Part shown: positions 6,043-62,749 of the stretch, piece after piece | Position numbering within the stretch: the stretch's first letter is position 1 | How the letters are laid out: each line of letters starts with the position of its first letter | Source of the DNA: Sinohyriopsis cumingii | Lineage: Eukaryota > Mollusca > Bivalvia > Unionida > Unionidae | NCBI GenBank assembly: GCA_028554795.2 | Contig: CM068838.1 | Location: forward strand, 87,796,944-87,860,943 | Direction of reading: 5' to 3' | Length of the DNA stretch: 64,000 bases | The notes under the pieces: generated by a model | Seen by the model: the letters and a program-made list of their open reading frames with translations, nothing else | What the model was told of the DNA's origin: nothing | Database searches by the model: none | Position numbers and translations under genes: made by a program

Positions 6043-6118
6043 TTTATAATTATCTCAATTCCACCTAGTATATCGAACCGGATTCCTGACTTGACTTCAT
6101 CCTTAAAACCCTCCAACC
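6043..6118 (-). CDS. Exon 21: continuation of the Cys-rich domain
   Basis: The acceptor is tctcattttag and the donor ATAAA|GTAAGT. Starts with GG (completing Gly), then 24 codons, [20 protein letters not shown] plus IEII-type residues, leaving two bases. Phase is consistent with exon 6741-6950, and the strand-like composition suits the end of the Cys-rich domain. The next exon must begin with one base of a split codon. Confidence 0.7.

Positions 6119-62749: not shown

Follow-up and report, generated by a model that had tools for sequence, protein, structure and literature searches.

A gene very probably encoding a large lipid transfer protein with a degenerate M23 domain in the bivalve Sinohyriopsis cumingii

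Background

Large lipid transfer proteins (LLTPs) have been grouped as APO, VTG and MTP (PMC8416765); vitellogenins have DUF1943 and VWD, and apolipoproteins DUF1081 (PMC10799875). Here and below, statements about a paper refer to the part of it that was available. We analysed a stretch of 64000 bases from Sinohyriopsis cumingii (contig CM068838.1, positions 87796944-87860943; 34% GC, without N; assembly of 2.9 Gb in 1138 contigs), which we call the window and which holds the middle of a real, intact gene. Its product is very probably an LLTP with a degenerate M23 domain. It shares with the LLTP superfamily (MTP, vitellogenin, apolipophorin II/I and apoB) the LPD_N N-terminus and superhelix, a hydrophobic leader, a dibasic site and, in the model of a relative, the fold. 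However, DUF1943, DUF1081 and VWD are not listed for it, and an M23 domain, a SAP-like motif and tandem Cys modules are present instead. The MTP class has LPD_N as its sole recognised domain, whereas here M23 and SAP are recognised too. As far as its sequence goes, the domain content fits none of the three LLTP classes (MTP, vitellogenin, apolipoprotein).

By analogy, we take the crab dLp/HDL-BGBP as the closest working model. This crustacean precursor is a giant LLTP split into chains at furin-type sites; the crab protein has 4831 amino acids (aa), and its predicted furin sites RAKR and RVRR would yield three fragments. It differs in keeping DUF1943, and the available part of the paper does not mention M23 or SAP (PMC8416765). 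LECT2 likewise is secreted and has a catalytically degenerate M23 fold in which the catalytic His is missing (PMC9662197, also our source for the roles of M23 residues). However, the human LECT2 precursor has 151 aa and retains the zinc triad His-Asp-His (PMC13385698), whereas here the first zinc His is mostly lost and the domain lies inside a giant LLTP. The bacterial EnvC and Csd2 also have M23 folds without catalysis, which act through interactions (PMC9662197), but they belong to bacterial cell-wall machinery and have no lipid-transfer part. Among the matches listed in open-licence PMC (titles and abstract openings), we found no paper on the combination of lipid-transfer, M23 and Cys parts; the LOC names of twelve relatives gave no papers in open-licence PMC either. 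The available parts of a mollusc vesicle proteomics study (PMC7760292) and of a study of worm LECT-2 (PMC5079751) held nothing decisive for this protein.

Gene structure in the window and beyond

An earlier note on this DNA, made from the letters alone, had proposed one gene of 21 exons running from 62749 to 6043. Our splice-aware search of the minus strand, which made no use of homology, yielded 24 chained exons: 20 of the final 21 places, including the motifs quoted in that note, and four exons without support in relatives. As relatives we used 37 proteins (27 mollusc, nine Branchiostoma, one Patiria; identified by P numbers) obtained from protein searches with about 8000 candidates scored in each. 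Mapping them on the window left four exons without a counterpart, which were dropped (52301-52149, or alternatively 52321-52149 in another frame; 50565-50512; 38393-38279; 35828-35690), and added 37259-37189. The final path (Table 1) reproduces the proposed one to the base: all junctions are GT-AG, phases are consistent, the 1088 aa contain 0 stops, and the quoted motifs are all present and in the order given there. Both ends are internal, exon 1 starting at an acceptor and exon 21 finishing at a donor. Of the dropped candidates, the one at 52149-52321 (minus strand, intron 5) had the top total score among the unguided exon candidates listed; it may be a decoy, an alternative exon or an element.

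Between 15 and 31 of the 37 relatives cover any given exon, and an early joined model, with two of the four false exons still in it, matched 15 mollusc proteins (E 4.5e-134 to 8.9e-283). The path is thus no product of chance. In other genomes, individual predicted proteins span it and support the exon joins: P0022 (Mizuhopecten, 3546 aa) aligns to residues 11-1088 of the window protein with 49% identity, and P0025 (Mytilus) to residues 1-1088 with 47%. The flanks of the window (1-6042 and 62750-64000) gave no convincing further family match (best other E 0.07).

In the upstream 100 kb we traced 11 more exons, from 108671-108489 to 64498-64387 in window coordinates, in phase up to a start codon at 108671 with a hydrophobic leader (judged by eye); the new junctions have AG acceptors and GT donors. 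Together with the 21 exons of the window they form 32 exons encoding 1453 aa with 0 stops. Matches to relatives earned a bonus when this 5' path was picked, so that they do not support it independently. Of the 37 relatives, 25 align to its first 420 residues (P0022 at 49%), and the N-terminal hydropathy window exceeds 1.9 in 7 of 14 relatives. For lack of a counterpart, the predicted 5' exons 100512-100461 and 97809-97665 and the front part of another one (above 92555) were discarded.

In the downstream 140 kb, tblastn matches lie on the same strand and in the relatives' order, which brings the gene as traced to at least 15 Cys modules (14 downstream and the window's own). The analysed DNA runs to -140000 and the matches in it to -137011; the gene end was not reached, and the span is at least 245 kb if this is one gene. 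No family match was found on the plus strand in the first 264 kb searched, all family matches being on one strand. The gene is probably molluscan, and its product is very large and probably secreted.

The lipid transfer superhelix and the regions that follow it

The superhelix occupies residues 1-231 of the window protein. With the upstream exons joined to these residues, Vitellogenin_N (LPD_N; Pfam cut-off 24) reached 45.5 bits (E 5.4e-12); the window part alone gave 25.1 bits as a 220-aa piece. The upstream exons and the score obtained with them raised our confidence in the LLTP identity from high to very high. As to the N-terminal beta domain that stands before the superhelix in LLTPs, about 365 aa lie ahead of the window part in this genome, and the model of the lancelet relative P0033 has strands at 42-180, with modest confidence. 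When this model was compared by Foldseek, ranks 1-7 were all LLTPs, with M23 proteins following among others; the fold match refers to the model of this one relative. Membership in the superfamily is thus strongly supported by sequence, and by fold in a relative.

A beta region at about 250-350 (exons 5 and 6) follows. Exons 3-6, which cover the late superhelix and this region, are among the best conserved (median identity 48-59%), together with the M23 exons 13 (51%) and 15 (55%). Residues from about 350 to 642 (about 290 aa) form helices with a mean hydrophobic moment of 0.449 compared to 0.222 ± 0.021 in shuffles, while three other regions tested did not differ from their shuffles.

Among 32 database rows, an RX(K/R)R site after the superhelix (RQKR before GF in the window) was counted in 22; of the other ten, two lack the region, and P0022 carries the site in its sequence though it stands outside this tally. 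Another site, RRKR before GV, lies after the M23 domain. A second RX(K/R)R pattern, YRRKRES (residues 127-130, exon 3), falls inside the superhelix and is found in many relatives; cleavage there would cut the superhelix itself.

The M23 domain

The M23 domain (residues 655-822) scored 30.7 bits with Pfam M23 as a piece (cut-off 28.7). Both folds that the earlier note had predicted, LPD_N and M23, were therefore matched, the former by Vitellogenin_N at E 5e-12, and both appear in the P0033 model. For the tally of M23 residues we aligned 29 copies, the window's among them, drawn from 28 proteins. Three copies, two from Haliotis and one from Potamilus, retain the first zinc His, and the window has Asp 692 instead; near this position two copies, the second one of P0021 and that of P0033, are truncated. 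The zinc Asp is kept in 27/29. The catalytic His, about 30 residues before HxH, is found in 0/29, with Asn in 27 copies (Asn 741 in the window) and Gly in two. HxH itself, HIH at 779-781 in the window, keeps its first His in 25 and its second in 27 of the 29 copies. Two Cys columns are conserved as well (25/29 and 29/29), compared to three conserved disulfides in the LECT2 family. Judged by these residues, the domain is not an active M23 peptidase.

A 10-row M23 profile compared to solved structures ranked LECT2 first (E 2.6e-5), followed by SpoIIQ (8e-5) and LytM (0.11), and the LECT2 alignment covers the first half of the domain only. The earlier description of the domain as LECT2-like can be kept with moderate confidence: LECT2 is the best solved-structure match, but only just ahead of the bacterial SpoIIQ. 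A genome search with the M23 family gave 0 matches. Even the copy in the window, whose coding sequence is spread across three exons, went undetected, and the search says nothing on paralogues.

SAP-like motif and Cys modules

The SAP-like motif, a pair of helices (residues 948-994), reached 19.6 bits as a piece, below the Pfam SAP cut-off of 23.9, which 9 of the 17 relatives scanned exceed (P0001, P0002, P0011, P0019, P0020, P0021, P0022, P0026 and P0027). The pattern had been read correctly in the earlier note, although it is weak in this species. Nucleic-acid binding by this part is unlikely in a secreted protein.

Residues 994-1088 are the first part of the first Cys module. The modules are about 200 aa long and stand in tandem; in the six models of at least 2900 aa, their profile gave 9 to 15 matches each, the 15 of P0023 including two short pieces that resemble one module. 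P0017, a protein made nearly wholly of Cys modules, had no Pfam family above cut-off for them, and P0017, P0022 and P0031 had no NCBIfam family above cut-off. The sole solved-structure match of an 8-row module profile was an unrelated phosphatase (E 0.19). In the model of P0012, fold matches lay mainly over the helical part at 24-252 and barely covered the Cys modules, whose predicted local distance difference test (pLDDT) values are modest. These search results are not evidence of a new fold.

Two minor observations concern the modules. P0002 (Mytilus galloprovincialis) has two VWA domains among them, at about 1013-1180 and 1655-1823, a case of lineage-specific shuffling within the family. 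In the module at about -91483 to -92492, below the window, the FEWGKHFHLSIEQ stretch forms a short internal tandem repeat.

Distribution of the family

All four parts (superhelix, M23, SAP-like motif and Cys modules) occur in one predicted protein in 17 of the 37 relatives, from bivalves, a gastropod and lancelets. This supports both the single four-part gene and the distinct family that the earlier note had proposed, with an order not known from standard lipid-transfer proteins, vitellogenin or LECT2. Some elements among the 17 are partial: the superhelix in P0002 and P0018, M23 in P0012 and the Cys module in P0007. Superhelix and M23 occur together in 25 of the 37, the sea star (Patiria) included, whose protein stops after M23; the remaining 12 are models without superhelix or M23 domain. 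The same order of parts, for which a search in other animals had been suggested, was found in other molluscs and in lancelets and partly in the sea star. Databases name the relatives uncharacterized or hypothetical proteins. In a tree of 27 rows the window protein groups with molluscs (100/100, 21 rows), with no closer kin resolved. To the earlier account we add the degenerate state of M23, the amphipathic region before it, the recognition that the Cys domain is the first of many, and the reach to lancelets and the sea star.

Two models from Branchiostoma lanceolatum stand apart. P0021 has two M23 copies and a repeated middle region, from internal duplication or an assembly artefact, and the model of P0037 combines the superhelix with a reverse transcriptase domain, probably through an annotation error.

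Proposed function and alternative explanations

The identity of the protein is strongly supported; its function we infer. On balance, we favour an LLTP of an unnamed class that is processed into a secreted lipoprotein, with target binding by its M23 and Cys parts. The product, whose start exon encodes the hydrophobic leader, would be secreted and cleaved by a furin-type protease after the superhelix, in some lineages also before the SAP/Cys part. The resulting chains would be the superhelix, the amphipathic helices with M23, and SAP with the Cys array. Superhelix, beta region and amphipathic helices would hold or coat lipid, and we regard formation of a lipid particle as fairly likely. The M23 fold, its catalysis lost, may serve as a binding domain for a peptidoglycan-like ligand, a receptor or a partner, and the Cys array may multiply the binding or cross-linking surface. 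Recognition of targets is a more tentative proposal; it is made plausible by reports that vitellogenins act in innate defence (PMC4632452). The product would then be a lipoprotein of the body fluid that acts as an opsonin or signalling carrier with a lipid load, and not a simple yolk protein.

Several observations weigh against this proposal. When the whole 1088 aa were scanned, HEAT_2 alone reached its Pfam cut-off; Vitellogenin_N (20.5 bits), M23 (27.3 bits, just under) and SAP (17.0 bits) did not. Among the 17 relatives scanned whole, Vitellogenin_N passes in six and M23 in five. Pfam listed DUF1943, DUF1081 and VWD neither in the 1088 aa nor in the 17 of 37 relatives scanned, where a diverged remnant is possible; since these domains follow LPD_N in vitellogenins and apolipoproteins, the lipid capacity may be small. 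The amphipathic helices could also be a plain helix bundle, and their contrast comes partly from the superhelix's short helices. The second dibasic site is patchy: of the 22 database rows that include an M23 end, 8 have a comparable one (looser matches in P0007, P0022, P0026 and P0033 uncounted), and exon 17, which carries it, is poorly conserved. With HxH mostly kept and the first zinc His in 3/29 copies, metal binding or activity might still occur in some species.

An alternative view is that the protein is a secreted lipoprotein bearing an M23 endopeptidase that is still active and is used against bacteria. Although the fold has HxH in most copies and the Haliotis and Potamilus copies keep the first zinc His, we consider this very unlikely, as the equivalent of the catalytic His is Asn or Gly throughout and the first zinc His is absent from 26/29 copies, the window included (two of these being the truncated ones). 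A wrong joining of two or more adjacent genes is less probable still. The path was read from genomic DNA alone, some database models stop inside it (e.g. P0010, P0015, P0031), and downstream of the window there are exon matches only, with no spliced path. However, in-phase GT-AG junctions link 32 exons from the start codon, superhelix and M23 occur together in 25 of 37 relatives from three phyla (with all four parts in 17), and every family match in the 264 kb searched is on one strand; the upstream exons and the Vitellogenin_N score with them lowered our already very small estimate a little further.

More weight may be given to a structural role, in two forms. The superhelix could come from a vitellogenin-like ancestor in a yolk or egg-coat protein whose Cys modules cross-link the egg envelope or matrix. 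LLTP ancestry, the long Cys arrays, which would suit a matrix protein, and the VWA insertions in one Mytilus paralogue agree with this, but VWD and DUF1943 are not listed by Pfam, and the available main text of a Biomphalaria yolk study reports four LLTPs (two Vtg, two Apo) without M23 (PMC10799875), though the gene may still be present there; overall we find this explanation improbable without being negligible. Somewhat less probable is an extracellular matrix or adhesion protein that has lost its lipid function and keeps the superhelix as a mere scaffold. The missing lipid-cavity domains, the repeats and the SAP-like and VWA parts would fit, but conservation is among the highest in exons 3-6 (superhelix end and beta region), and the helices next to them are strongly amphipathic.

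More tentatively, the protein may represent a fourth LLTP class, in addition to MTP, vitellogenin and apoB/apolipophorin, that the ancestor shared by molluscs, lancelets and echinoderms already possessed. In such a giant lipoprotein, a degenerate M23 recognition domain and a repeat array would link lipid transport to humoral defence or signalling, and the Cys module would be a new domain family. This class would be defined by architecture alone. A conserved, apparently unnamed giant LLTP whose second half is different would alter the count of the superfamily as well as its history. It would also give the degenerate M23 fold a new animal setting and provide a defined candidate for a mollusc lipoprotein with a recognition role, and the Cys module, with at least 15 copies here, is a domain family awaiting definition.

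Features of the window and minor observations

Table 1 Features of the gene and the window. Positions are window coordinates; negative values lie below the window. Column Evidence denotes the basis of each feature. Exon 1 of the window path is the 12th of the gene as traced.
Feature	Position	Strand	Evidence
Exon 1, superhelix	62575..62749	-	GT-AG; 28 relatives; in phase with upstream exon 64498-64387
Exon 2, superhelix	60336..60525	-	GT-AG path; 31 relatives
Exon 3, superhelix, LGNAAHHSS motif	59426..59634	-	GT-AG path; relatives; HEAT_2, Vitellogenin_N
Exon 4, superhelix end	57161..57279	-	GT-AG path; relatives
Exon 5, furin-type site RQKR before GF (aa 252-255), beta region start	52897..53099	-	GT-AG path; relatives; site tally
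Exon 6, conserved beta region following superhelix	46742..46887	-	GT-AG path; relatives
Exon 7, amphipathic helical region	46081..46257	-	GT-AG path; relatives; hydrophobic moment
Exon 8, amphipathic helical region	40604..40762	-	GT-AG path; relatives
Exon 9, amphipathic helical region	39933..40075	-	GT-AG path; relatives
Exon 10, amphipathic helical region	37189..37259	-	Found by homology; phase fits
Exon 11, amphipathic helical region	34707..34873	-	GT-AG path; relatives
Exon 12, amphipathic helical region	27417..27583	-	GT-AG path; relatives
Exon 13, M23 start, GVD motif, first zinc His replaced by Asp 692	21712..21898	-	Pfam M23; residue tally
Exon 14, M23, VAPFAGSV, catalytic His replaced by Asn 741	21019..21186	-	Pfam M23; residue tally
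Exon 15, M23, HIHF, DPT	17665..17841	-	Pfam M23; residue tally
Exon 16, linker after M23	16733..16880	-	GT-AG path; relatives
Exon 17, linker with dibasic RRKR before GV (aa 886-889)	14989..15072	-	Least conserved exon: 17 relatives, median 24% identity
Exon 18, helical segment before SAP	12674..12825	-	GT-AG path; relatives
Exon 19, SAP-like motif	7414..7552	-	Pfam SAP, below cut-off here, above in 9/17 relatives scanned
Exon 20, first Cys module, first part	6741..6950	-	Module profile matches aa 1002-1058
Exon 21, Cys module continued, ends at internal donor	6043..6118	-	GT-AG path; 15 relatives
Module 1 remainder	-505 to -735	-	tblastn match below window
Second SAP	-6044 to -6220	-	tblastn match below window
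14 first halves of Cys modules	-7514 to about -136290	-	tblastn, counted by eye from listed matches
Tandem array, 31 bp x 15	538-1002
Tandem array, 78 bp x 16.6	8401-9694
(AT) x 71	13055-13196
Tandem array, 45 bp x 4, perfect, just downstream of exon 17	14794-14974

No Rfam family matched the window at the gathering threshold, and seven long open frames scanned gave no Pfam match at 0.01. Two frames within introns, both on the minus strand and without a Pfam match at 0.01, may be mentioned. The one at 43994-44401 (intron 7, 136 aa) is coding-like, has no counterpart in the family and may be a nested gene fragment or a mobile element. The other, at 22492-22932 (intron 12, 147 aa), resembles by eye the end of a non-LTR (non-long-terminal-repeat) reverse transcriptase.
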